Shown here piece by piece: positions 1 to 13,258 of a stretch of DNA of 64,000 nt. The position numbers were made by a program, and so were the translations under genes. The notes under the pieces are model-generated. The model had not been told where the DNA came from. It saw only the letters and a program-made list of their open reading frames with translations, and made no database searches. This stretch comes from Streptomyces sp. NBC_01750 (lineage in GTDB: Bacteria; Actinomycetota; Actinomycetes; Streptomycetales; Streptomycetaceae): the NCBI RefSeq assembly GCF_035918095.1, contig NZ_CP109137.1, positions 2,730,001 through 2,794,000 of the forward strand, written 5' to 3'. Every line of letters starts with the position of its first letter. Position 1 is the stretch's first letter.

Positions 1-1250
1 TCCTCCACGAGAGCGGCGGTGCCGACCTCCTGCGGGCGCACGGACTGACCCTCGTCGAGGAAGAACACCGTCAACCGGGAGGCGTCGAGGAGCTCGTCCA
101 CCTGAGGCTTGGTGCCCCAGTCCTCGGGTTTCCAGAAGCGGTTGGTGGAGCGGTCGCGCAGGCGGTGGGCCTCGTCGCAGATCAGCACGTCCAGCGGCGG
201 GTCGGGCGGGGTGACGAAGTTGCTGAAGTAGGTGAAGGTCTCCTTGAACTCCCGGTCGCCGAAGCCGACATGCTCCTGCAGCGCGCCGTTGAAGGCCCTG
301 CTACCGCTCGCGTACTTGACCGTGCGACCCTCCGCCTCCAGTTCGGCCTTGAGCTGGAGGCCGATGGCGCTCTTGCCCGTGCCGGCACCGCCCGTGACGA
401 GGAACACCACCCGTCGCTCGTCGGGGAGGAGCGCGGGCCGCCGGGGATCGGGAAGCACCTTGGCGGCAGTGTCGAGGATCTGGTCCGCGACCTTCTTCTG
501 ACGGCCGCGCAGGGTGAAGACCGTGTCCTCGCCGCTGGAGCGGATCATGGCGTCGAGCAGCGGGGTGTTGCGCAGGCCCATGCTCCGTAACAGGATCTCG
601 GCCGCCGAGTCGGCACCGTCGTCGGCGAAGCTGCTCCGCAGGTCCGACAGCAGTTGGGCGCGGCGGTCGCTGGTGTAGACACGGGCGTAGGAACCGGTCG
701 GCGCGTCCACGCCGACCAGCGGGAGCACCGCGGCGTCGGTGGCGTTGTGCAGATAGGCGAAGCCGCCGCACTCGTAGTCCAGTCCGTGCAGCGGCCCTCT
801 GTCACTTGTGAACGCCTCGTAGTATTCGCGCAGTTGCAGCGCGGGATGCTTCTTCTCCCCCATACCGGGGACATGCACCAGTTCCGCGGTGGCTCGCTCC
901 ACCCGGGTCACCGTCGACCAACGCTTCAGCTCGACGAGTTGGACGGACAGCCCGTTCTCTTTGGGATGATGCCCCACGAGGACGACGTCGATGAGCCGCG
1001 GGTCCCCAGCGCGGTCGGTCTCGTCGAGCGTGGCCGCGCACTCGACGACCATCTCGACGTTCCCACGGTCGGCGGCGATCAGATCTTCGGCAAGATGAAC
1101 CAGGCTCTCTGCCCAGGCGGAACGTTCAGGCAACGAAGCGTCGGTGCTGAGGAAGTGCTTCCACCTCGCGGCGAGGTGGGGCACCATACGGCGTCTTGAG
1201 TTCAGGTTCAGCAGATCTCGCGCTGCCAGTTTCAGCAGGAGCATGGACAC
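1..1250 (-). CDS. DUF2075 helicase-like protein A, 3' end outside window
   Basis: An open minus-strand frame runs from a GTG at 1250 (or ATG at 1244) to the left edge with no stop, so only the N-terminal part (about 416 codons) is present. The middle shows a P-loop NTPase core: Walker A GGAGTGKSAIGLQL near residue 283, then YFSNFV, a Walker B-like LICDEAHRLRD, and FFLDEGQSVRPQEVG. These are the hallmarks of DUF2075 (Schlafen/SF1-helicase-like ATPases). The N-terminal 270 residues contain a PD-(D/E)XK-like stretch (VVLVGHHPKE, then LVELKRWS), suggesting a nuclease-type fold, which is inference. The GGGGGA ribosome site lies 8 bases before the GTG. A diverged paralogue follows at 1421-3331, and both share the same upstream element. 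A role in phage defence or DNA processing is inferred from the neighbourhood. Confidence 0.85.
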   Translation of the reverse strand, partial: MSMLLLKLAARDLLNLNSRRRMVPHLAARWKHFLSTDASLPERSAWAESLVHLAEDLIAADRGNVEMVVECAATLDETDRAGDPRLIDVVLVGHHPKENGLSVQLVELKRWSTVTRVERATAELVHVPGMGEKKHPALQLREYYEAFTSDRGPLHGLDYECGGFAYLHNATDAAVLPLVGVDAPTGSYARVYTSDRRAQLLSDLRSSFADDGADSAAEILLRSMGLRNTPLLDAMIRSSGEDTVFTLRGRQKKVADQILDTAAKVLPDPRRPALLPDERRVVFLVTGGAGTGKSAIGLQLKAELEAEGRTVKYASGSRAFNGALQEHVGFGDREFKETFTYFSNFVTPPDPPLDVLICDEAHRLRDRSTNRFWKPEDWGTKPQVDELLDASRLTVFFLDEGQSVRPQEVGTAALVE

Positions 1251-1275
1251 GAGGTGGATCCCCCAGGGCACGAGT

Positions 1276-1330
1276 GACTCGTGCGGATGGGGGCATGTCC
1301 ACGTGGGAAGCCCGTCGGGCCGCAATGACG
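1276..1330 (-). promoter_or_regulatory. Conserved two-block upstream element, copy A
   Basis: Two 25-base blocks (1306-1330 and 1276-1300), separated by 5 bases, lie just upstream of the first DUF2075 gene. They match the blocks at 3406-3430 and 3357-3381 with one difference in each block. The distal block contains the small palindrome GCCCGACGGGC. The proximal block ends 26 bases before the GTG start. The function is unknown; a leader, promoter or operator is inferred from position. Confidence 0.6.
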
Positions 1331-1420
1331 CCTGGGATCTTAAGGAAGTGAAGGCCCTCCCAACGCATATGACACATCGGTCGGCTGGAAGCACGGCCAT
1401 CATGGCCGGATATCACGCGC

Positions 1421-3331
1421 TCACCGCCGCAGAAGTGGCTCCTCGATCGCGGCAGGCTGTGGCTCCGGTCGGCCGGACACCAGTTCCCGCAGCCTCTCCC
1501 GGGTCTCCTGGTCGGTCGAGTACACGATCGTGCCGACCATGCCCCGCGTCAGCAGCACTTTGTACGTATTCCGAATGAGACGGTCCACATCGGTTTCCGG
1601 TGTGGCCTTCTTGAACACCGGGTCCTTGGACGCGGTGCGGTCGGTGACCCAGCGGTCGCCTCGCCAGACAAGGTCCGGACCGATGATGACGCCGGACCAG
1701 TCGTACTCGAACCCCTGGGCGGTGTAGACGCAGCCGATCTGCCCGAAGCCCGCAGGGTCGGTGGCCCACAGCGCGGACGGGGGCGCGCCGGAGACCGACC
1801 GGTCCCCGCGCAGGTTCCAAGGCCGGGCCCAGCCCCCGATGACGACGTCGGGAGGCAGTGGATCGCCGGGCTTGGGCTCGGGGGACCACCGCCAGCAGTA
1901 GCCCGCGGACATCCGGGCACCGTATTTCTCGGCGCGGCGGGCGTCGAGGAACGCCTCCAGCTCTTCAGGGCTGTCGGCGACCAGCAACTGCATGCGGTCG
2001 TCGGGCTCCCACACGACCGGCCCGCCGGGCTCAAGGCCGAGGAGCCGGACCACCCAGCGCAGGTAGGCGTCGCTGCCTCCGCAGCGGAACTGGCTGTCCA
2101 GGGGGACGACATGGCAGTCGATGCCCCGTCTGGCCGCGGCCTCACGGATTTCGTCCACGGTGCCCATCTCACCGGGACGCACCACTTGGTGCTCGTCGAG
2201 GAAGAAGACCGGTACGTGGGCGACGTCGATGAGTTCGTCGATCTGTGCCCTGCCGGTCCGCAGGGCCGCGCGAGTGTAGCGGTTGGCAGACGTCTCCCGG
2301 ATGCGGTGCGCCTCGTCACAGATCAGAGCACCCAGGCTGTTCTTCTCCGTGGTCATGAAGCTGTTGAAGTATTTGAAGAGATCCTGGACTTCCCGTTTCC
2401 GGGAGCCGGCCACCTTGCGCATCGTCTTGGTGAACGACTGCGAGCCGGTCGCGTGGACCGCAGCCACGCCCCTCCGGTAGAGCTCGCCGAGCAGTTGGAG
2501 CGCGATCACGCTCTTCCCGGTACCGGGGCCGCCTGTGACGATGACGACTTCCTTGTGGTCGGCGCGCTTCGCCCTCTCCAACGCGTTGAGCACCATGCGG
2601 TAGGCGACCTGCTGCTCGTCGAGAAGGACGAACTGCTGTCGCTCCCGCACTTCCTGAGCTGCCACGGACATCAACTGCTTAGACGGCACGGTGGCGCCCG
2701 CGAGCAGTTCGTCCGCCGCACGGGCCCCGGGGTGCTTGTCGCTCAGCTTCGACCGGAGGTGGTCCAGGAACGCACCGCGACGCTCCCCCGTGAAGAGCAG
2801 TCCCTGCCCGTCGCGCTCGATCTCCCGCAGCCCCGTCACCCCGAACTCGGTGGCGTTGTGCAGGAAGGCCACTCCGTGGATCCGCTCGCCGTGCTCGGCC
2901 ACCGCGCCGTTGAAGTTGATCAGGTAGTCGCAGTATCGCCGCACCTGCTCGATCGGGTTGAGCACGGGGTGCGCGTAGGCGTCGACATAGCACAGGGTGG
3001 GGTCGTCCTCGTGCGGAGCCGCCTGGCTCCACTGCTTCAGCTCCACCACAACGTAGGACGGCTCCTGCGTGATCGGGTGCAAGCCGGCGAGGACGACGTC
3101 GGCACGCTTGCTGTTCAGCGGTAGCGCGTACTCCAGCATGACCTCGACGTCGCCCAGGCCGGCGTCGTTGAGCGCGGCGGTCAGAAGCGGGATGCTGCGC
3201 TCCCAGGAACGCATCTCCGAGGCTCCGGGTCCATAGCCGTGCATGTGGACGAACTGCTCGGTGAGGTACAGGAACAGCGAACCGTCGAGTGCCATGACGG
3301 CGACCGTTTTCGCGGACGCGCGGAACAGCAA
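1421..3331 (-). CDS. DUF2075 helicase-like protein B
   Basis: This is a complete 636-residue paralogue of the gene at 1-1250. The ATPase core has Walker A TGGPGTGKSVIALQL (about residue 270), FKYFNSFM, Walker B-like ICDEAHRIRE, FFLDEHQVVRPGEMG, a DSQFRCGGSDAYL segment and, near the C-terminus, FEYDWSGVIIGPDL followed by YKVLLTRGMVGTIVY, the usual DUF2075 helicase motifs V/VI. The N-terminal 250 residues carry RADVVLAG and VVVELKQWS, again nuclease-like. I chose TTG at 3331: GGGGGA sits 5 bases upstream and the protein then begins MLFRASAKTV, aligning with protein A. The open frame extends further upstream, but that would translate through the conserved upstream element. Its substrate is unknown; association with a DUF4011 helicase-nuclease suggests nucleic-acid surveillance. 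Confidence 0.85.
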   Translation of the reverse strand: MLFRASAKTVAVMALDGSLFLYLTEQFVHMHGYGPGASEMRSWERSIPLLTAALNDAGLGDVEVMLEYALPLNSKRADVVLAGLHPITQEPSYVVVELKQWSQAAPHEDDPTLCYVDAYAHPVLNPIEQVRRYCDYLINFNGAVAEHGERIHGVAFLHNATEFGVTGLREIERDGQGLLFTGERRGAFLDHLRSKLSDKHPGARAADELLAGATVPSKQLMSVAAQEVRERQQFVLLDEQQVAYRMVLNALERAKRADHKEVVIVTGGPGTGKSVIALQLLGELYRRGVAAVHATGSQSFTKTMRKVAGSRKREVQDLFKYFNSFMTTEKNSLGALICDEAHRIRETSANRYTRAALRTGRAQIDELIDVAHVPVFFLDEHQVVRPGEMGTVDEIREAAARRGIDCHVVPLDSQFRCGGSDAYLRWVVRLLGLEPGGPVVWEPDDRMQLLVADSPEELEAFLDARRAEKYGARMSAGYCWRWSPEPKPGDPLPPDVVIGGWARPWNLRGDRSVSGAPPSALWATDPAGFGQIGCVYTAQGFEYDWSGVIIGPDLVWRGDRWVTDRTASKDPVFKKATPETDVDRLIRNTYKVLLTRGMVGTIVYSTDQETRERLRELVSGRPEPQPAAIEEPLLRR

Positions 3332-3356
3332 GGACTTCCCCCAGGCAGCACGAAGA

Positions 3357-3430
3357 GACTCGTGCGGGTGGGGGCATGTCCTTCGAGACTCCACCGGAGT
3401 GGAGCGGAAGCCCGTCGGGCCGCGATGACG
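3357..3430 (-). promoter_or_regulatory. Conserved two-block upstream element, copy B
   Basis: The same two 25-base blocks as at 1276-1330 occur here at 3406-3430 and 3357-3381, but the spacer is 24 bases instead of 5 and holds a perfect hairpin CTCCAC-TCCG-GTGGAG (minus strand). The element ends 26 bases before the chosen TTG start. The remaining intergenic DNA (3431-3616) shows no gene. Confidence 0.6.
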
Positions 3431-3616
3431 ATGTGTTCGAGGGTACCTGGCGGTACTGGCAGTCGTACCGGTGGCCGCATTGGAGGCAGCGGACCCCATG
3501 CCCGGTCTCCCCGACCGACATCCGGATACCGAGTGCATGGCCTCTGACCTCTGGAGTCGGCGAGGTCGACCTCGGTAGCGTCCGCGTCATCCCAGCGGAC
3601 GCGTCACCGCAACGAA

Positions 3617-6600
3617 TCAAGAACCCTCGGCGGGCATCAGGTCACCCTCCGAATCGATCAAGTCCCCTGCGGCGATCAACGCGTCGATGTCGCCAGTCAG
3701 CGCGTCCCGGATATCGACTCCGAGCCGCGCCCACCCGAAGAAGCGAGCGGCTTCCCGCAGCAGGTCCTCGCGATGCACGCCCGGTCCTTCGTCGACCACG
3801 TTTCTGAGCACGAGTTGCCGCTCCGCCACGGGAACCTCCGCGACTCGTCGGGCACACCGCTCAGTGGGCGTGCGGGCGAACTCCGTCTCGTGGCCGGGCC
3901 TGTCGTAGGCCGTACCGACGTGGACGATCTTGCCGTGTTTGAGCAGGCGGCGAAGAGCTCGATCGATGCGGTCGCGAACCACCTGGCCGGCTCGTCCGAG
4001 GCCCCACGCGAGACGGACCCGGGTGTAGATCACCTCCTTCTCGACGGGCCCTTCCACCTCAACCACACACAGCGCCACGTCCGCCACCACGTCAAGGGCA
4101 TCGGGGTCCTGCAACTCCACGCCCCACATGCCCCGCCGGCTGCTCGACCTGTCACGTACCTCTGCCAACAGGTCAGGGTCGACGTCCTGGTAGGGACGGC
4201 TCCAGGGGGCAGGGCCGGCGTCGACCGTCACGAACTCCACTCGCGGGACTGCCGGACCACCTGCTGCCCCTTCTACAGACTCTCCGCGCCCCGCGCTCAT
4301 GGGGCCGTCCACGGCCTCCGCCGTACTGTCACCGTTGCCACGGTTTCCGCCGCTGCCGTCCACCCCCACGGGTGGCGCCACTCGCACCGCATGCGGATCC
4401 TCCGCGCACGCCGCCTCCACCACGGACCGCAGCCGCGCCATCGCATCCCGCCGGTTGCGATACCAGTCCGTACCCCAGATTCGGTGCAGCCTCCAACCCA
4501 GGTCGCGCAGGACCGCCTCCCTGAGCCGGTCGCGGTCCCGGGCCGCCCGTGAGGAGTGATACATGGCGCCGTCGCACTCGATGCCCAGCGCGTACGTGCC
4601 GGGCGCGCCCGGGTGCCGTACCGCCATGTCGATGCGGAAACCGGCGACCCCCACCTGCGGCTGGACCTCATATCCCCAGCCGCGCAGAACGTCGATGACC
4701 TCCTCTTCGAAGGGGCTTTCCGGGGCTGCTTCCGGATCGGCGGCCTCCGTCTGAAGGATCGCAGGACCGTGCTGGGCGTACTGCAAGTACCGCTTGAGGT
4801 GTTGCACGCTCTTGTTGGCGCTGTCCGGCAGATCGCCTCCGTGGAAGGAGGCGATGACCTCCATGCGGCGCCGGGCGCGGGTCACGGCCACGTTGAGGCG
4901 TCGCCAGCCGCCCTCCCTGTTGATGGGGCCGAATGTCGACAGCAGCTTGCCCCGGTGGTCGGGACCGTAGCCGATGGAGAGGATGATGACGTCGCGCTCG
5001 TCGCCCTGGACGGTTTCGAGGTTCTTGATGAAGAAACCGTCGAGCCGGCCCTCCGTGAAGTGGTGGTCGAGGTCCGGGCGGGCTGCCCTCGCCTTCTGCA
5101 CCGCCTCCTCGATTGCCTCCGCCTGCGCCTTCGACAGCGCGACCACACCGAGGGTGTGCTCGGGGCGGGTGTCGAAGTGGTGGATGACGCGCTTGGCGAC
5201 CTTGGTGGCCTCGCGAGGGTTGTCGCTGCTCCCGCCGCGGTCGTAGACACCGTCCGCCTTGATGAACTCCACGCCGACGTCCGGTCCCTGTTCCAGCACG
5301 CCCGGGAACGTGACCATGGAGTTGTCGTAGAAGTCGTGGTTGCTGAAGGCGATCAGATTCTCGTGCCGGCTGCGGTAGTGCCAGCGCAGGGGTAGCCCGC
5401 GCAGGACTCCGCTGGCCTTGCACATGTCGAGGATGGACTCGAAGCCGTCGGTGTCGTCCTCGTCCCACTCGTCGCCGTCGTCGCTGTCGCTGGCCGCGAT
5501 GAAGAACGAGGTCGGCGGCAGCTGCTTCTGGTCACCGGCCACGATGAGGGCCTTGCCCCGGTAGACGGAGTTCACCGCGTCCTGGGGCAGCACCTGGGAT
5601 GCCTCGTCGAAGATGACGACGTCGAACTCAAAGTCTGGTGGCAGGAACTGGCTGACCGTCAGTGGACTCATCATGAAGCAGGGCTTGACCAGCCGTACGA
5701 CGTCGCGTGTCTGCTTCAGCAGGTGCCGTACGGGCATGTGGCGACGCTGCTTCTCGGCCTCGCGGCGGATCACGGCGGCCTGGCCCACCGATGTCCGGCG
5801 GGGGCGGCGGGAGTTGCATGCGGCGATGACCTCGGCGTGTGCCGCCGCCACCAGGTCCTGGTCCGCCCTCTGGAAGCGCTCCACCAGCTGGTCGCGTTCC
5901 ACGGCCCGCATCGGCTTCAGCCTATTGTCGGTGGCGAGCTGGCGCTCGACCCATGCGGTGAGCACCGCTCGTTCCATCGCGGCGGGGAAGTCCTCGGCGG
6001 AGACCTCGCGGCGCGCGAGCTGGTCGGGCAGCCCGTCGAGGTGGTAGCGGCGCAGCAGGGTCAGTGCGTCGGCGCAGCTAGTCCACGCTTCCGGGCCGAA
6101 GGGGTCGCGGTCGAGGCGGGACAGGACGGACTGGGCAGCGGTAAGGGATTCGGCGAGTTCGCGTCGCAGCTCCTCAGCCCGCTCGGGCTCGAAGTACCCG
6201 GCGAGTGCCTCGCGCTGACCGCTCCAGTCGTTGGCGCGGTCCGCGACGGACGGGTCAACTGATGCGGTCAGCATCAGCCGGGCCGCCGCTCGCGGCAGTG
6301 GCGCGGAGTGGCCGCCATGTGCGGTACGCCGAACCTTCTGGGCCCAGTCCAGGGCATCCAGGATCGCGTCGCGGCCTGTCTCGGTGCCCTGGTACAGGGA
6401 GCCGAGAAGGCTTCGGTAGGTGGCGTCGTTCTCCGCGAAAGAGGACTCGGCGGCGCGGGCGGAGACAACGGCGGCCACCGCTTCCCTGGCCCGCGACAGG
6501 GTGAGGCTTGTCTCCTCGTTCATCACGCGGGCGGTTGAGCGTATGAGGTCGGCCGCGTCTTCGAAGGGCTCCACGTGCGCGCGGAGCCAGCTCGCCGCTC

Positions 6601-9600
6601 CTTCGAGGGTTCGGGCGGCGAGTGCTGTGCCGACCGCCGCAATGTGGGGCTCGGCGGTGTACTCCTGCCATAGGTCCAGGTCACAGCGGATCTGGTCGGT
6701 CTGCGCGAGGAGTTCGCGCGGTTCGGGCCGGCCGTCGGCCAGTACGTTGACAAGGCTGGTCCGGCGCGCTGGCTCCGTGAGCGTGTCGGGTGCGAGGCGG
6801 GCGATCAGCCGGGCGGAGTCCAGAGCGGCCCGCAATGCCTCGGTGTGGGGGTGCCCTTCCGGGGCGTACCGGCCCAGCAACTCGCGCTGTTGCTCCGTGG
6901 TGTACGGGCCCGGTTGCTGTCGCGTCAGGTCAAGGCCGCGGCGCAGGAGCTGTCCCATGGGCTCGTAGCCCGTCACGCCGTTGGGTGCGGCGTCGTACAG
7001 GTCCTCCGCCTGCGTGTCGAGGCCCCGGTACCAGGGGCCGAGAAGGTTTCGGTCGGTCACGGCCTGAGCGGCGAACGTGGCGGTCTCCTTCTGTGCCGCA
7101 TGCGCGACCGTGACCGCCGTGCGCGCGGAAGCGAGTGTGTGCTCGGAACCGGGGCCACTGTCCCGGCGACCGACCGAGGCCACGGTGTCCAGCAGCACGA
7201 CGGCCTGCCGCACGGGGGCGAGGTGGGCGCGCAGCCAGCGGGCGGCGTCGGGGAGCGGCTGCTTGGTGAGATCGGCCGCATGCGGTGCCAGCAACGTGCT
7301 GTCCAAGGCCCGTCGCCACGTCGCGAGTTCGCTGCGCAGCGCCGTACCCAGCTCGACGAGTGCGGGTTGGGGCTCTCTGCCGTCGACCAGGTGAGTGGCG
7401 AGCAGGCTCCGCCGGTAGGGGTCGGCCACGGTTTCGGGCGCAAGTGCGTGGACCGCTTCGGCGTGCGCGAGTGCCTTGCGCAGCGCCGGGACGTCGGGCA
7501 ACGCCGTGCCCCGATAGCGGCCGATCAGCTCGGCGTGGGTCATGGTCAACGACCGCAGCTTCCGGTAAGCGGCGCACCAGGCGTCGGCGAGCGGCAGCTT
7601 GTCGTACAGCTCGCCGCGCCACGAGCCGCCGTGTGTCAGCTGGGCCACGAGCTTCCGGTCGGCCCGGATTCTGCTGGACAGCATGCCGGCGAGTCCCTGG
7701 CGGCCCTCGGTGAGCCGATGGATTGCTTCGGGCAGTTCGGGCTCGGAGACGACTTCGGGCAGGAAGATGCCGCGCGCCGTCTCCTCCGCGACAGCCAGTT
7801 CTTCGGCCGCTGAGGACATCTCCGCGACGGCTGCCTGGACGCCGGAAAGTGCCCGGGGATCGAGCCACGCTTCGAGCGTACGGTCCGAGGCTGTGGCCAA
7901 CTCCACGAGCGTGACCAGGTCCTCGGCCTCGGACGTCGCCTTCGGCCGCCGGCACCCAAGGCGCTCGGCCACCGAGTCGGCGTGCTCGGCGGCCATCTCA
8001 AGGGTGTCAGCGAGCGTGTCGAAGCACTCGGCCAGCTCCGCGGCCTCGCGGACGGGCATCGACGCAATGTCGACTCCCGGCGGTTCCAGTGCGGCGAGTG
8101 CCTGCTCGTTGGGCGGTCGTTCTGCGCTCAGTTCGGGACGCAGTTCGGCCCACCCCGGGCCTGCGTGGTCCGTCGCAAGGGCTCGGGCGGAGAGTACCTG
8201 GTCCCGTCGTGCGAAGAAGTCGCTCAGTGCGTCGGCGGCGCCCCGGACCGCCGCCTCCTCCGCTCGCGCGGGGCCATCAAGGTCCAACCACTGCTCAAGA
8301 GGGCGGTGCTCCGTGCCGGCCACGGCGATCACGTCACACAGATGACGTGCTTCCTCGGGGCTGCCGGGGTTCGTGAGCCCGGTGAAGTGGCTGACGCTGG
8401 TGAGGCTCTTCAGGGTCCGCTCGAGCACCCCAGCGGTCGCGTCGAAGTCCGTGGCGAGCTGTCGCGCTCGCTCTTCCGTGAGTCCGGCGAGGTCGAGGCC
8501 GCGCGGCGCCAGCGCCGAGAGCGTCTTCTCGGCTTCCCCAGGCTCAGCCTTCAGCCTGGTGGACAGCTCCTGCCAACGCCCGCCCACCGCCGCGCGGACG
8601 GCGGTGCTTGTACGCTGCACCTTGCGCAGTTCCGCGAGGAAGGCGTCGACCCGGTCGTCCACCTCGTCGGCGAAGGCATCGGTGGTCAGCCAGGCTTCCG
8701 GCACCGGACTCCGCACCTCGAGCAGCCGCAGGAGCGCGATCAGACGGTCGATTCCGCTCTGGTCTGTGACGGGCACTCCCCCGGGCGCGAGGTCCCGGTA
8801 CCGGTCGACCGCCGTCGTGAGCGCGTCCCGCGCCGCCTGCGCCTGCTCCAGCACAGGCCGTGGATGCGGCAGGCCGTCTCGCAGGTCACGCCAGGGGAAC
8901 GATGGGTCGGCGACCGCCTCCCAAGCGTCGGAGATGGCCTTCGTCGCCTCGACGATCAGGCGCAGGTCCTCGTCACTGAGCGTCTCGGCGTGAAACGTCG
9001 CCCTTGCCCCGGTGGGCGTGTCGTCACCACGGCTCAGATAGGCCACCGGCGCCTCGGACAGTTGGCCGACCCGACCAAGCACGTCGTGAAGGGTCCGTCC
9101 CAGCGGGTCGCGGACCTCGTTCATTGCTTCGGCGTAGGCGCTGAGCGCGAGGCGCAGTTCCCTGGCCTGGGCCAAGGTCTGCTGTGACAGTTGCGGTGCG
9201 CGCGGCTCCTCCGCGAGAACCCGGCCCAGCTCCTGAGCCACCGCTTTGCGGCTGGTGTTGTGGCTGTGGAGGGCCAGGGCGTACGAGTCGAGTCCGACCG
9301 ACTTCAGCCGGTCGAGGACAACGTCGAGTGCCGCCGCCTTCTCACTGACAAAGAGCACACTGCAGCCTGCGTGCATCAGACCTGCGATCATGTTCGTGAT
9401 CGTTTGGCTCTTGCCTGTGCCGGGCGGACCGTCCAGGACGAACGACTGTCCAGCCACGGCCGCGGCGACTGCCTGCCGCTGCGAGGCGTCGGCGTCAAGC
9501 ACCAGCGGGCTGTCCTCGGGCGGGCTCAGTTCGTCGATCCGGTCGAGCTCGATCTCCTCGAAGTCGAAACGGTCGGACGCGAGCCCGGAGTTCGTACCGA

Positions 9601-10387
9601 GAGCCATCGCCCGTACGAGGTCACTGCCGAGGACGCGGTCCTCGTTGTCCAGCAGGTCCTGGTACATCGATTCCTTGTGGGAGGCGAAGAGTGCGAGCAC
9701 TACACGGTCGGAGATCTGCCATCCGGCCTTGCCCGCCACCGCGCGTGCCGCGGCGGAGTGCACAGCCTGCAGGTCCGAAGGGTCCTGTTCGCCAACCGGA
9801 GCCCAGTCGATATGGAATTGCTCCAGCTTCACCTTCAGGGCCGGGTTGAGGCGCGGTTCCTCGTCGTCGCTCGCCCTGAGGCGGAGCCGGCCGTTGCGCG
9901 CGCGCTCGATGACCACCGGCATCAGTACCAGGGGGGCGTCACTGCCCGTCTCAGCTCCGTCCTCACGCCAGCGGAGCATGCCGACGCCGAGATTGAGGGT
10001 CCACAGGCCATAGTCGTTGAAGACCTGCGTCGCTTTGGCGCGCAAGCTGTTCAACGCGCGCAGAAGGGAAGGCGCGGTGGTCTTCTGGGTGACGATTCCG
10101 TCGGTGCGGTCGCCCTTCTTCGCCAGGACCACATCGCCGGGTCGCATGCCCTCGCCGACCTCCGGTTCCTCATCCGGTAGCGGCGCGAAGTCCCAGCCAC
10201 GGGCCAGGCCTTCGACGAACTCCTGCGCGGATGGGGTCGCGATCTCCAGTGTCGCCGACTTGGTGTGGCGGAAATTGAGCAGCCGGTTGCGGCCGCTCAG
10301 GTCCACGAGAGAGGTGCGCCAGCTCTCAAGCATCGCCTTGAGGCGGTCGAGTCCCTGGCTGCCCCCGAAGTCACCCGAGTTCGTCAC
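3617..10387 (-). CDS. Giant DUF4011 / SF1 helicase / Vsr-like nuclease / DUF3320 protein
   Basis: A single frame of about 2256 residues from GTG 10387 (GGGG 6-10 bases upstream; the open frame extends further but with low-complexity, non-homologous sequence). In order: an N-terminal DUF4011-type region (SLVDLSGRNRLLNFRHTKS, residues 20-40), Walker A LDGPPGTGKSQT near 320, a very long mostly helical insert of about 1270 residues, then helicase motifs FDEASQV (about 1590), VAGDQKQLPP, LRWHYRSRHE, ETVQGDERDVI (about 1790) and VAVTRARRR (about 1835). A Vsr/MTES_1575-like nuclease follows (SPFEEEVIDVLRGWGYEV, FRIDMAV, GIECDGAMYHSS; about 1890-1990). The C-terminus (about 2120-2250) fits DUF3320. 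From memory, DUF4011-helicase-Vsr is the architecture of the single-gene antiviral system Hhe. The ATPase and nuclease motifs look intact, so it is probably functional. Clustering with two DUF2075 genes supports a defence role, by inference. Confidence 0.9.
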   Translation of the reverse strand: MTNSGDFGGSQGLDRLKAMLESWRTSLVDLSGRNRLLNFRHTKSATLEIATPSAQEFVEGLARGWDFAPLPDEEPEVGEGMRPGDVVLAKKGDRTDGIVTQKTTAPSLLRALNSLRAKATQVFNDYGLWTLNLGVGMLRWREDGAETGSDAPLVLMPVVIERARNGRLRLRASDDEEPRLNPALKVKLEQFHIDWAPVGEQDPSDLQAVHSAAARAVAGKAGWQISDRVVLALFASHKESMYQDLLDNEDRVLGSDLVRAMALGTNSGLASDRFDFEEIELDRIDELSPPEDSPLVLDADASQRQAVAAAVAGQSFVLDGPPGTGKSQTITNMIAGLMHAGCSVLFVSEKAAALDVVLDRLKSVGLDSYALALHSHNTSRKAVAQELGRVLAEEPRAPQLSQQTLAQARELRLALSAYAEAMNEVRDPLGRTLHDVLGRVGQLSEAPVAYLSRGDDTPTGARATFHAETLSDEDLRLIVEATKAISDAWEAVADPSFPWRDLRDGLPHPRPVLEQAQAARDALTTAVDRYRDLAPGGVPVTDQSGIDRLIALLRLLEVRSPVPEAWLTTDAFADEVDDRVDAFLAELRKVQRTSTAVRAAVGGRWQELSTRLKAEPGEAEKTLSALAPRGLDLAGLTEERARQLATDFDATAGVLERTLKSLTSVSHFTGLTNPGSPEEARHLCDVIAVAGTEHRPLEQWLDLDGPARAEEAAVRGAADALSDFFARRDQVLSARALATDHAGPGWAELRPELSAERPPNEQALAALEPPGVDIASMPVREAAELAECFDTLADTLEMAAEHADSVAERLGCRRPKATSEAEDLVTLVELATASDRTLEAWLDPRALSGVQAAVAEMSSAAEELAVAEETARGIFLPEVVSEPELPEAIHRLTEGRQGLAGMLSSRIRADRKLVAQLTHGGSWRGELYDKLPLADAWCAAYRKLRSLTMTHAELIGRYRGTALPDVPALRKALAHAEAVHALAPETVADPYRRSLLATHLVDGREPQPALVELGTALRSELATWRRALDSTLLAPHAADLTKQPLPDAARWLRAHLAPVRQAVVLLDTVASVGRRDSGPGSEHTLASARTAVTVAHAAQKETATFAAQAVTDRNLLGPWYRGLDTQAEDLYDAAPNGVTGYEPMGQLLRRGLDLTRQQPGPYTTEQQRELLGRYAPEGHPHTEALRAALDSARLIARLAPDTLTEPARRTSLVNVLADGRPEPRELLAQTDQIRCDLDLWQEYTAEPHIAAVGTALAARTLEGAASWLRAHVEPFEDAADLIRSTARVMNEETSLTLSRAREAVAAVVSARAAESSFAENDATYRSLLGSLYQGTETGRDAILDALDWAQKVRRTAHGGHSAPLPRAAARLMLTASVDPSVADRANDWSGQREALAGYFEPERAEELRRELAESLTAAQSVLSRLDRDPFGPEAWTSCADALTLLRRYHLDGLPDQLARREVSAEDFPAAMERAVLTAWVERQLATDNRLKPMRAVERDQLVERFQRADQDLVAAAHAEVIAACNSRRPRRTSVGQAAVIRREAEKQRRHMPVRHLLKQTRDVVRLVKPCFMMSPLTVSQFLPPDFEFDVVIFDEASQVLPQDAVNSVYRGKALIVAGDQKQLPPTSFFIAASDSDDGDEWDEDDTDGFESILDMCKASGVLRGLPLRWHYRSRHENLIAFSNHDFYDNSMVTFPGVLEQGPDVGVEFIKADGVYDRGGSSDNPREATKVAKRVIHHFDTRPEHTLGVVALSKAQAEAIEEAVQKARAARPDLDHHFTEGRLDGFFIKNLETVQGDERDVIILSIGYGPDHRGKLLSTFGPINREGGWRRLNVAVTRARRRMEVIASFHGGDLPDSANKSVQHLKRYLQYAQHGPAILQTEAADPEAAPESPFEEEVIDVLRGWGYEVQPQVGVAGFRIDMAVRHPGAPGTYALGIECDGAMYHSSRAARDRDRLREAVLRDLGWRLHRIWGTDWYRNRRDAMARLRSVVEAACAEDPHAVRVAPPVGVDGSGGNRGNGDSTAEAVDGPMSAGRGESVEGAAGGPAVPRVEFVTVDAGPAPWSRPYQDVDPDLLAEVRDRSSSRRGMWGVELQDPDALDVVADVALCVVEVEGPVEKEVIYTRVRLAWGLGRAGQVVRDRIDRALRRLLKHGKIVHVGTAYDRPGHETEFARTPTERCARRVAEVPVAERQLVLRNVVDEGPGVHREDLLREAARFFGWARLGVDIRDALTGDIDALIAAGDLIDSEGDLMPAEGS

Positions 10388-10593
10388 GCTGGCCCCTGAT
10401 GTTGTCGCTTCTGGGCCAACGGAGCACCGGCGTCGACGGCAATCCCCTCTGCTGCCAACGCAAAGCGCGGCCAGAGAAGTCCGTACTGTCCTGGTGGCCG
10501 CACGAGTCCCGCTGATCCCCCCTGGATGCGGAAATTCTACGGTCAGCTCACCAATGCGTGAAGCGTTAACTACGGAACGGTTTTTCTCGGTAG

Positions 10594-11110
10594 TCACGAA
10601 GCCTCGGTATGCCCCGGCCCGCAGCCCCTTCGAGAAAGCGAATGGAGCACAACCGACTCCATCGCCCGGTCCCACGGCCTCGACGGCCGCCCGTCCAACG
10701 CGGGTGTCTGCTTCGACTCCTCCATTGGACACAGCCACCCCAGGCCGCGTGGCGCCTCAGTCGTGCGGCGGGCAGCCTGCGGCAACGAGACCAGGAGTTC
10801 GTGCCCTGCACCGCCGTGTGCGAGCAGGCCGGAGTTGTGGACGAGGAGCACCGCCTTGGGCCGGACGTCTCCGCTGGCCCCCTCAGCCGGTCGGCCAGGC
10901 GGGCGGGTGACGCGGCGGGCGTAGGAGCGCATGCCAGGCTTGAGCTTGCCGGTCCCGGTAAAGATGGCGTCGGCCCCTGGACTTTCGTCCAGTCGGTGCC
11001 GAGTTCGTCGGCGAGTGCGCGGAAGAGGGCCAGGAACTCCACGTTGAGGTCGACCGACAGCGCTCCAAACTCGTCGGCCAACAGTACGCCCGCCGTGACG
11101 TCGCCTGGAC
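10594..11110 (-). pseudogene. Frameshifted remnant resembling C-terminus of a pgl/BREX-type large protein
   Basis: Two minus-strand frames join into one plausible protein if a frameshift is allowed at the four-base homopolymer 10974-10977. The upstream part reads DEFGALSVDLNVEFLALF...LGTDWTKVQG. The downstream part reads ADAIFTGTGKLKPGMRSYAR, then VLLVHNSGLLAHGGAGHELL, and APRGLGWLCPMEESKQTPAL. The pattern (conserved GLLA, then a LWLLCP-like strand and LDG) recalls, from memory, the C-terminal region of large BREX-2/pgl proteins such as the PglW kinase; the assignment is tentative. There is no upstream catalytic region, so this is a fragment. It lies between the giant helicase and a second decayed gene on the other strand. 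Confidence 0.4.
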
Positions 11111-11682: not shown

Positions 11683-11985
11683 ATGCTCTCCACGCTGGAC
11701 AACAGCCTTGTGCTGTTCATGGTGGCCGAGCTGCTGCACACGGTCCGCCTCCCCATCAGGAACCGGACACTGGACGCGGAACCCTTTCTCGTTGTAGGCC
11801 TGATCGCGGGAATCCGTAAGGTTCTCATCGTCACCGCCGAGGCCGAGCGGTTCAAGTGGAATCCCCAGGGAATCGAGCTCGTCATCCTGGCCGGGCTGAT
11901 CTTCGTCATGGCGCTGGCCACCCTGGTCTGGCGGCGCGCGAGTCGGCCCCGTGAGTTCGCGTTCCCCAAAGGCATCGGTGCCTGA
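11683..11985 (+). CDS. PsiE-like membrane protein, apparently 5'-truncated
   Basis: From ATG 11683 the 100-residue product reads MLSTLDNSLVLFMVAELLHT, then EPFLVVGLIAGIRKVLIVTA and GIELVILAGLIFVMALATLVW. These match the second half of phosphate-starvation-inducible PsiE family proteins, which are usually around 150-170 residues with an extra N-terminal membrane helix. The frame stays open to 11593, but that upstream part is basic, low-complexity and unlike PsiE, and it overlaps the end of the decayed gene in another frame. There is no convincing ribosome site at 11683. It may be a remnant rather than a working gene; PsiE function is itself poorly known. Confidence 0.5.
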   Translation: MLSTLDNSLVLFMVAELLHTVRLPIRNRTLDAEPFLVVGLIAGIRKVLIVTAEAERFKWNPQGIELVILAGLIFVMALATLVWRRASRPREFAFPKGIGA

Positions 11986-12106
11986 CCCGCCCGGCGCGGG
12001 CAGCCCGGGGGTTACTGTACGGAGTCACGCTGCGGTTGCTGCTCCCGCGCCCACCGCGTTACCTGGAACGGGGCGGAGCGAGGCTCACGGAGCGCGAGGA
12101 GCGGTG

Positions 12107-13258
12107 ATGATCACGCAAGACCAGGTCGATCGAATTCTCCGGCTGGACGGGAACGGACTTCCGTTGGTCTCGCTCTACGTCCCCGCGGAACCGGACAGGA
12201 CGGGCCGCCGCGCGTTCTTGACCCGGGTGGCGAGCCTGCTGGACCGCATCCGGCCCCTCGCGGAGGATCGCACACTTGAGCACGCCGCGCGGCTCTCGCT
12301 CCGCGACGACATCGCGAAGATCGAGAAAACGCTCGAGGAGGAGCCCCACAGATCGGGCGCTGTCGCCGTCTTCTCCTGCAGCGGCAACGGCGTCTACGAG
12401 CAGGTGTGGCTGCCGCGAAGCACCCGCGAACGCATCGTGGTGGACGCCGATCCGTACGTCCGTCCGATGCTGGGCGTGCTCGACGAGTACTACCGCACCT
12501 GCGCGGTCATCGTGGACAAGGGGACCGGCCAGGTCTGGGAGCACTACATCGACCAGGCCCGGGAGCTGGAGACGATCCGCGACCGTACGCTGCGCAAGCC
12601 CAACTACGCCGCGGGGCTCGCCGAGGACCGGGTCCGCAACAAGGCCGACGAGCTCAGCAAACGGCACTACCGGCGGCTCATCGGCGAGCTGAAGCAGCTC
12701 TTCGGGACCGGGAGCTTCGACCTGCTCGTCGTCGGCGGCCACCCTTATGAGGTACCGGTCTTCATCGAATTTCTCCCGCGCGAACTGCGGGACCGGCTCA
12801 TCGGCAGCTTCACCGTCGACCGCGGGACCGCCACGCCCGCGGACATCAAGCAGAAGGTGCAGGAGCTCGTCTCCGACCACGCACAACAGGAGCAGCGACA
12901 GCTCGTCGGCGAGATCCTCGAAGCCAGGGCGGCCCGGCGGCCCTGCGCCGTCGGGCTCGACGAGACGCTGTGGGCGGCCTCGCTGGCCGCGATCCGGACG
13001 CTGGCGGTGGACGAGGAGGCGGTCGCCCCAGGTGTCGTCTGCGACCGGGACGGGCTGCTTGCGCGCTCGGGAAAGACCTGCCCGCTCTGCGGGGAGCCGC
13101 TGCGCGAGGTTCCCGACATCATCGACGCACTGACCGAGACCGTCAAAGACGACGGCGGCGAGGTCCGGCACATCGAGCCGGAGACGGAACTTCGCGCGCA
13201 CCAGGTCGGGGCACTGCTGCGCTTCGAACCTCCCCCGGAGCAGGCCGGCGCGGGGTAG
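12107..13258 (+). CDS. Bacterial eRF1-like (baeRF) family protein
   Basis: A 383-residue soluble protein. LPLVSLYVPAEPD near the N-terminus, NKADELSKRHYRRLIGELKQ and FDLLVVGGHPYEVPVFIEFL in the middle, and a C-terminal treble-clef-like CPLCGEPL segment fit the bacterial archaeo-eukaryotic release-factor-like families (Vms1/eRF1 fold) seen in actinobacteria. Eukaryotic relatives act on stalled ribosomes as peptidyl-tRNA hydrolases; a ribosome-associated stress role here is inference. I chose ATG 12107 because AGGAG lies 5 bases upstream (GTG 12104 is possible). The longer open frame back to 11951 has no such signal. It stands alone, between the truncated psiE-like gene and a long intergenic stretch. 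Confidence 0.75.
   Translation: MITQDQVDRILRLDGNGLPLVSLYVPAEPDRTGRRAFLTRVASLLDRIRPLAEDRTLEHAARLSLRDDIAKIEKTLEEEPHRSGAVAVFSCSGNGVYEQVWLPRSTRERIVVDADPYVRPMLGVLDEYYRTCAVIVDKGTGQVWEHYIDQARELETIRDRTLRKPNYAAGLAEDRVRNKADELSKRHYRRLIGELKQLFGTGSFDLLVVGGHPYEVPVFIEFLPRELRDRLIGSFTVDRGTATPADIKQKVQELVSDHAQQEQRQLVGEILEARAARRPCAVGLDETLWAASLAAIRTLAVDEEAVAPGVVCDRDGLLARSGKTCPLCGEPLREVPDIIDALTETVKDDGGEVRHIEPETELRAHQVGALLRFEPPPEQAGAG

Follow-up and report, generated by a model that had tools for sequence, protein, structure and literature searches.

The two diverged Schlafen-type genes at the start of this stretch of Streptomyces sp. NBC_01750 are each preceded by a two-block element that is real and forms the 5′ leader of the mRNA on the minus strand. 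This leader is probably an RNA switch that controls translation in a defence locus, as judged from sequence comparison and predicted folds. The fold, its position in the transcript and its link to the genes rest on comparison, and the switching, its direction and its effector are what we infer as the most likely reading. The silencing of bacterial defence nucleases until infection is poorly understood, and a compact conserved RNA fold starting several unrelated genes of one kind of defence-like locus provides a sensor that can be tested directly. Whichever ligand or protein the leader responds to may point to an infection signal of Actinobacteria and to how bacterial Schlafen relatives are regulated. 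The covariance model can moreover serve as a marker for finding such loci.

Two diverged paralogues carry a strongly conserved leader

The window, that is, the whole stretch of 64,000 nucleotides that was analysed, holds both copies of the element, and positions 1276-3430, covered by a preliminary description, comprise both copies and most of gene B. The features are as follows.

3..1250, minus: gene A, Schlafen-group-3 helicase protein, GTG start at 1250-1248, cut by the window start; PF09848 at 9.6e-31 on the piece
1330-1306, minus: copy A, block 1
1305-1301, minus: copy A, spacer of 5 nt
1300-1276, minus: copy A, block 2
1421..3331, minus: gene B, N-terminal domain and Schlafen-group-3 helicase, TTG start at 3331-3329; PF09848 at 9.2e-92
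3430-3406, minus: copy B, block 1
3382..3405, minus: copy B, variable spacer of 24 nt with hairpin, capping P3
3381-3357, minus: copy B, block 2

The two 25-base blocks described before each gene were recovered, with 24 of 25 bases alike per block. The genes are strongly diverged paralogues, as had been claimed: their proteins are 32-38% identical, and the first 600 coding bases share 344 of 540 aligned bases (64%), so the leader is conserved far above the genes. The 60 upstream bases are alike at 28 of 51 positions (55%). It was likewise correct that the spacers differ (5 nt in A, 24 nt with a CTCCAC/GTGGAG hairpin in B) and that the distance to the start is equal, with 25 bases after block 2 and the start codon beginning at base 26 in both. 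Two features had been missed: block 1 pairs with block 2, and the conserved element extends beyond block 2 through a GCACGA/UCGUGC hairpin and a GGGGG run.

No third site was found in the window with block 2 (25 bases, at most 3 mismatches; mean of 0.00 matches in 100 shuffles) or with 23 bases of block 1 (at most 3 mismatches; mean of 0.01 in 100 shuffles). Across the 9.0 Mb genome, a 21-base pattern matched these two copies exactly and one more site with 3 mismatches, the control giving 2 matches, and model R2 returned these two copies and nothing else; no further copy rose above chance.

Both proteins match the Schlafen group 3 helicase family PF09848 (formerly DUF2075) strongly, at 107.8 bits for the piece of A and 308.5 bits for B against a curated cut-off of 24, and the leader occurs in one subfamily only. 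Invariant columns include Walker A residues G265, G266, G268, G270 and K271 and the DEAH residues D337-H340, together with D76, E95 and K97 in the N-terminal part (all numbered from base 3325); the N-terminal D/E/K residues may be those of a PD-(D/E)XK nuclease. The structural model of protein B had a pLDDT of 89.2, and its best solved match by E-value was human SLFN11, with a low whole-chain TM of 0.30/0.24.

The blocks pair into a nested fold supported by covariation

Three stems join the block 1 and block 2 strands. P1 (GCGG/CCGC) is followed by the internal loop CCCGAC/CCAY, P2 (RGGC/GCCY) by the loop UU/ACAY, and P3 (CC/GG) is capped by the variable spacer.

1283..1323, minus: aptamer-like fold, copy A; R2 63.6 bits, within the lowest-energy fold of 1328-1278, with covariation
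1323-1320/1286-1283, minus: copy A, P1
1313-1310/1294-1291, minus: copy A, P2
1307-1306/1300-1299, minus: copy A, P3
1319-1314/1290-1287 and 1309-1308/1298-1295, minus: copy A, internal loops
3364..3423, minus: aptamer-like fold, copy B; R2 69.8 bits, within the lowest-energy fold of 3428-3359
3423-3420/3367-3364, minus: copy B, P1
3413-3410/3375-3372, minus: copy B, P2
3407-3406/3381-3380, minus: copy B, P3

The pairing of RGGC, in the second half of block 1, with GCCY in block 2 was shown by diverse copies. Among 55 diverse sequences, 94.3% of cells were paired in the nested fold, and 25 cells had changed on both sides, compared with 6.2 ± 1.9 in shuffles, none of 500 reaching that count, and no more than 5 in slid versions. 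Swaps from G-C to A-U were seen at the outer P2 pair in 11 sequences, at the third P2 pair in 4 and at the outer P1 pair in 5, and the outer P2 position was unpaired in 10 of the 55. Because the fold was partly derived from these first 55 sequences, the count was repeated on 83 distinct later sequences, which gave 13 double changes versus 1.1 ± 0.9 (0 of 500 shuffles); these sequences were found with R2 in two orders and were aligned by fitting them to that model, and some may repeat named genomes used before, though few. A local GCCC/GGGC hairpin inside block 1 was also considered and was rejected, showing no covariation.

The spacer ranged from 3 to 37 nt among 101 parsed leaders, and 18 of the 54 spacers of at least 10 nt folded better than 95% of their shuffles. 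A further explanation, that the blocks are coding sequence of an upstream frame (TCPHPHESL...), draws on that frame being open through the gene B leader in the window; in relatives, however, insertions of 1-2 bases between block 2 and the start break the frame and the spacer length varies freely, and we regard this explanation as practically negligible.

The leader has one of the features expected of a riboswitch, a conserved aptamer-like fold with covariation in a 5′ UTR. Searches of Rfam gave no family match at E ≤ 10 for window positions 1000-4000 and nothing at the gathering score for loci L034, L086, L089, L103 and L105. For L302 and L328 at E ≤ 5 there was a single match, at L328:730-804 on the opposite strand; it does not overlap the leader and scores far under its gathering threshold. 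A narrow literature search on these genes in Streptomyces found nothing, and we make no claim that the RNA is unpublished.

Likely promoter and Shine-Dalgarno sequence, and predicted exclusive folds

A TANNNT box ending 4-20 nt upstream of P1 was found in 109 of 127 leaders, with 15.1 expected from shuffles; since this likely −10 box lies just upstream, the leader can be placed at the 5′ end of the mRNA. In 13 of 17 leaders read, the start codon lay 11-16 nt past the G that opens the G run, the other four having no start by the rule used, and this spacing marks GGGGG as the likely Shine-Dalgarno (SD) sequence. In the window copies it stands 6-9 nt before the start.

1337..1342, minus: TAAGAT, the likely −10 box for gene A, separated from P1 by 13 nt
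3440..3445, minus: TACCCT, the likely −10 box for gene B, separated from P1 by 16 nt
1268..1284, minus: hairpin GCACGAG/CUCGUGC, copy A
3348..3365, minus: hairpin GCACGA/UCGUGC, copy B
1264-1260, minus: GGGGG before GTG 1250
3342-3338, minus: GGGGG before TTG 3331
1260..1265, minus: UGGGGG, likely SD of gene A; closed-fold partner CCCCCA at 1293-1288
3338..3343, minus: UGGGGG, likely SD of gene B; closed-fold partner CCCCCA at 3374-3369

The preliminary description had left a choice between operator, promoter and RNA leader. The RNA leader was supported by the compensatory nested fold, the −10 box upstream and the likely SD inside, and the DNA operator was not, as it explains neither the compensatory pairs nor the SD anatomy. 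An operator or promoter bound by a transcription regulator common to the genes would fit the −10 box adjoining the element, but the compensatory pairs span a spacer of 3-37 nt in 101 leaders, and a DNA site would need neither an SD nor a distance to the coding start that hardly varies (39 of 40 rows of the protein search below fall within 27-48 nt); we therefore hold it to be very unlikely.

The first 51 nt (A) or 70 nt (B) were predicted to fold as P1/P2/P3, with one additional P3 pair in both copies and one additional P1 pair in copy A. These short 5′ pieces were not unusually stable (z of −0.61 and −1.44; matched by 48 and 18 of 200 shuffles), which slightly lowers our confidence in the switch. 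For the full-length leaders of both window copies, the best predicted fold paired CCCCCA with UGGGGG, and these leaders were unusually stable for their composition (z of −2.93 and −2.11). As the 3′ strand of P2 can pair with either its P2 partner or the GGGGG of the SD, the two predicted folds would exclude each other. The predicted layout is that of a translational RNA switch, and switching itself would follow from it in the manner proposed below.

In the 90 parsable leaders of the 127, the free fold was better than the aptamer-constrained fold by a median of 13.1 kcal/mol. The SD was fully paired in the free fold of 82 of the 90; with the aptamer enforced it was on average only 27% unpaired, still completely paired in 30 of the leaders and completely free in 3. 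Prediction thus captures the closed state well, but not the open one. The pairing of P1/P2 and that of the SD both draw on strongly conserved C/G runs. Certain variant SDs, GGAG among them, have CUCC as their partner in place of CCCC (L180, L224), and these matched variants suggest, from sequence comparison, that the aptamer strand and the SD may be coupled. In a permutation test of this coupling, class 1 leaders gave 1/5000, but a control with the strand read backwards passed too, and class 2 leaders gave 4385/5000. A duplex of aptamer strand and SD reached p ≤ 0.05 in only 44 of 127 leaders and in 1 of 14 of class 2.

A folded leader might also act with no effector, braking translation constitutively or serving as an RNA thermometer, so that a harmful nuclease stays at a low level. 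The very stable closed fold (median −41.95 kcal/mol over the 90 leaders), with the SD hidden in nearly all of them, agrees with this. Such a brake, however, needs the SD hairpin alone, which leaves the class-wide conserved block 1 and the loops CCCGAC and UU/ACAY superfluous, and it would not need the covariation of P1 and P2. We consider it improbable, and prefer the translational switch.

The leader is linked to one subfamily of Schlafen-type genes

When 150 genomes of the genus were searched at the DNA level, 38 had a match at E ≤ 0.001; three of these (G093, G147, G149) were short matches with no Schlafen-type gene, look like chance and were set aside. R1, a covariance model made from 53 copies, found matches at E ≤ 0.1 in 58 genomes of a class sample of 296, and all 30 loci fetched for the best places had a Schlafen-group-3 helicase gene or a piece of one directly after the element. 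Seven weak R1 matches (L151-L157, E of 5.7e-4 to 5e-3) came with no Schlafen-type gene and were taken as chance. In a phylum sample of 296 genomes, partly shared with the class sample and with the share outside the class not given, 6 genomes matched at E ≤ 0.001, all from the one class and one of them by chance.

With R2, 38 of 42 matches in the 296 class genomes stood just before a Schlafen-group-3 helicase gene, and the other four lay in such loci. Two of these four precede damaged or cut Schlafen-type genes (G337, G202:C39), the third (G295) stands before a gene that comes after the Schlafen-type gene and has an EVE match below threshold, and the fourth (G163) is a weak match divergent from the Schlafen-type gene. 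No aptamer away from a Schlafen-type locus was found among the 42 of the class sample. Two further orders gave matches in 19 of 166 and 92 of 317 genomes; of the stretches read from them, some of which overlap, 80 of 81 hold a Schlafen-type gene or a piece of one, and the last ends at a contig end.

The reverse search, by protein, gave 61 rows in the 296 class genomes (two of the genes giving two rows each), of which 40 had the aptamer, placed 27-48 nt (in one case 108) before the point of the query's first residue. Among rows of at least 50% identity aligned from the first 30 residues, 31 of 32 have the leader, the exception being G330, a close homologue at 55% identity; all six type A rows in the genus have the aptamer. 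The 21 rows with no aptamer are G330 twice, G338, three rows that match in full at 32-33% identity, G413 and G202:C6, which lie at contig ends, 11 partial rows covering the helicase part at 30-48% identity, and fragments of G168 and G337, the degraded gene of G337 in fact following an aptamer. R1 or R2 shows the leader in 78 of 80 named loci. These loci were picked by protein similarity, limited to the top 80 of 500, with queries that came nearly all from leader-bearing loci; the set is therefore biased, and the row count in class genomes is the fairer measure. The two in which no leader was seen are L196, whose upstream sequence is 6 nt long, and L223. In the sampled genomes, then, the blocks are not widespread away from DUF2075 genes. 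The family link proposed earlier holds for one subfamily, as seen in the close rows, and fails for DUF2075 genes as a whole, since distant rows have no leader.

Viral spread of the leader was rejected. The two-block pattern picked out 7 viral contigs, none with a Schlafen-type gene, a stricter pattern gave 0 matches there, and a viral protein search found relatives in 5 contigs, one of them with a leader (L247).

Some elements stand before no full gene: L058 keeps 26 codons, L063 none, L073 lacks an inner piece and L044 has none. L058, L063 and L073 look like deletion remnants. L044, also recorded as L162 (G053:C8), is an orphan copy with a near-perfect long hairpin and no Schlafen-type gene in the fetched stretch. 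At another locus (L052), three Schlafen-type genes carry three diverged leaders.

These data bear on the idea that the RNA is itself a working part of the system, one that the Schlafen-type nuclease-helicase or its partners would use as substrate or guide, or be inhibited by. It accords with all 42 aptamers of the class sample lying in Schlafen-g3 loci, and with one locus being able to have the leader on several genes. Against this, 38 of the 42 directly precede the start codon of a Schlafen-type gene, the SD usually being part of the element, and the geneless copies read resemble remnants, L044 alone being unexplained; we judge the idea unlikely. A regulatory leader of the downstream gene is the reading we retain.

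Leaders group with orthologues

Recombination between copies had also been suggested, and was unsupported in most loci. In 18 two-copy loci, leader likeness to orthologues averaged 0.84-0.92, while likeness to the other copy of the same genome was 0.69 and 0.78, about equal to that between genomes. That recombination between the two copies keeps the sequence alike would suit an element common to two tandem paralogues, as well as L042 and L043, where the two leaders of one genome have an unusual spacer in common; yet leaders group with orthologues and not with the same-genome copy, and the same element occurs in loci where one leader was found. We consider it highly improbable as an explanation of the conservation. 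The common spacer in L042 and L043 possibly records a local conversion event.

Other genes under the leader

A diverged copy of the leader stands before a neighbouring gene in Janibacter, Phycicoccus, Nostocoides, Humibacillus, Rhodococcus, Gordonia, Geodermatophilus and others. Nine of ten such proteins scanned have an HNH endonuclease domain, two (L201, L159) have an EVE match, both below cut-off, and the L186 protein matches a type IV restriction model at 8.4e-62. In L186 (1089-2366) and L302/L336, the gene with a class 2 leader is divergent from the Schlafen-type gene and matches a type IV methyl-directed restriction model. In L328, L338 and L339 the leader precedes the gene immediately before the Schlafen-type gene (L328:1005-1778, L338:2265-3023 and L339:2091-2849), and CBS domains were found in those of L328 and L338.

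Proposed mechanism and comparison with known systems

In the switch that we propose, the −10 box just upstream would put the mRNA start at the leader, and the blocks would pair into the nested hairpin, interrupted by the two conserved internal loops; prediction gives this fold for the first 50-70 nt as well. P1/P2/P3 may form an aptamer or a protein-binding site. The likely SD lies within the conserved 3′ part, close to the start, and GCCCCCA, made up of the 3′ side of P2 and the loop, is the strand predicted to pair with it in the full-length fold. If the aptamer is held, the SD would be freed and the Schlafen-type nuclease-helicase made; if not, the strand would shift onto the SD and translation would be off. 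Restriction to Schlafen-type loci favours a locus protein or an infection-specific signal over a general metabolite, and a locus protein, possibly the Schlafen-type protein itself, and a small molecule changed by infection are about equally likely candidate effectors. More tentatively, the leader could be an anti-phage riboswitch, in which a small molecule or nucleotide responsive to infection opens the SD and jointly turns on the Schlafen-type, HNH restriction-like and CBS genes; this stronger form is possible but rather doubtful, and if it is true, a dangerous nuclease would be made only when needed.

Translational riboswitches and orphan riboswitch candidates have a compact conserved fold in the 5′ mRNA with internal loops and an exclusive pairing that hides the SD. 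The leader resembles them in its place at the 5′ end of the mRNA and its compact fold with internal loops, may also have such an exclusive pairing, and differs in being limited, in the samples, to one kind of defence-like locus and in having no family match in Rfam 15. In autoregulatory leaders of the ribosomal-protein type, a protein of the operon binds its own mRNA leader. By analogy, a locus protein could bind this fold and set translation, but here the same leader stands on the genes of several unrelated proteins.

Surroundings of the locus

The two genes probably serve in resistance to viruses, and the defence evidence at the locus consists of candidate-model matches (PDC-S41, PDC-S37) and Pgl neighbours. 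By PADLOC, PglW and PglX lie directly after gene A in the genome, as part of what is presumably a Pgl/BREX type 2 system, the name and type that we take to apply to PglW/PglX loci in Streptomyces; these PglX and PglW genes occupy L075:134-8436 (contig C1 2720134-2728436), outside the window. The only two leaders found in this genome sit on Schlafen-type genes, and most fetched stretches have no Pgl gene, with PglW/PglX relatives in 13 of the 42 loci L034-L075 and in 6 of the 80 named loci. In S. fungicidicus, the plasmid copy and drmB are some 7 kb apart.

Directly 5′ of the leader-bearing genes, window positions 3617-10738 (minus) encode a 2373-residue helicase with DUF4011, an MTES_1575 nuclease domain and DUF3320, which is the PADLOC candidate PDC-S37 (1249.5 bits). 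Near the locus, at 11951-13255 of the window (plus), lies a gene for a baeRF family 10 domain protein, which is archaeo-eukaryotic release-factor-like.
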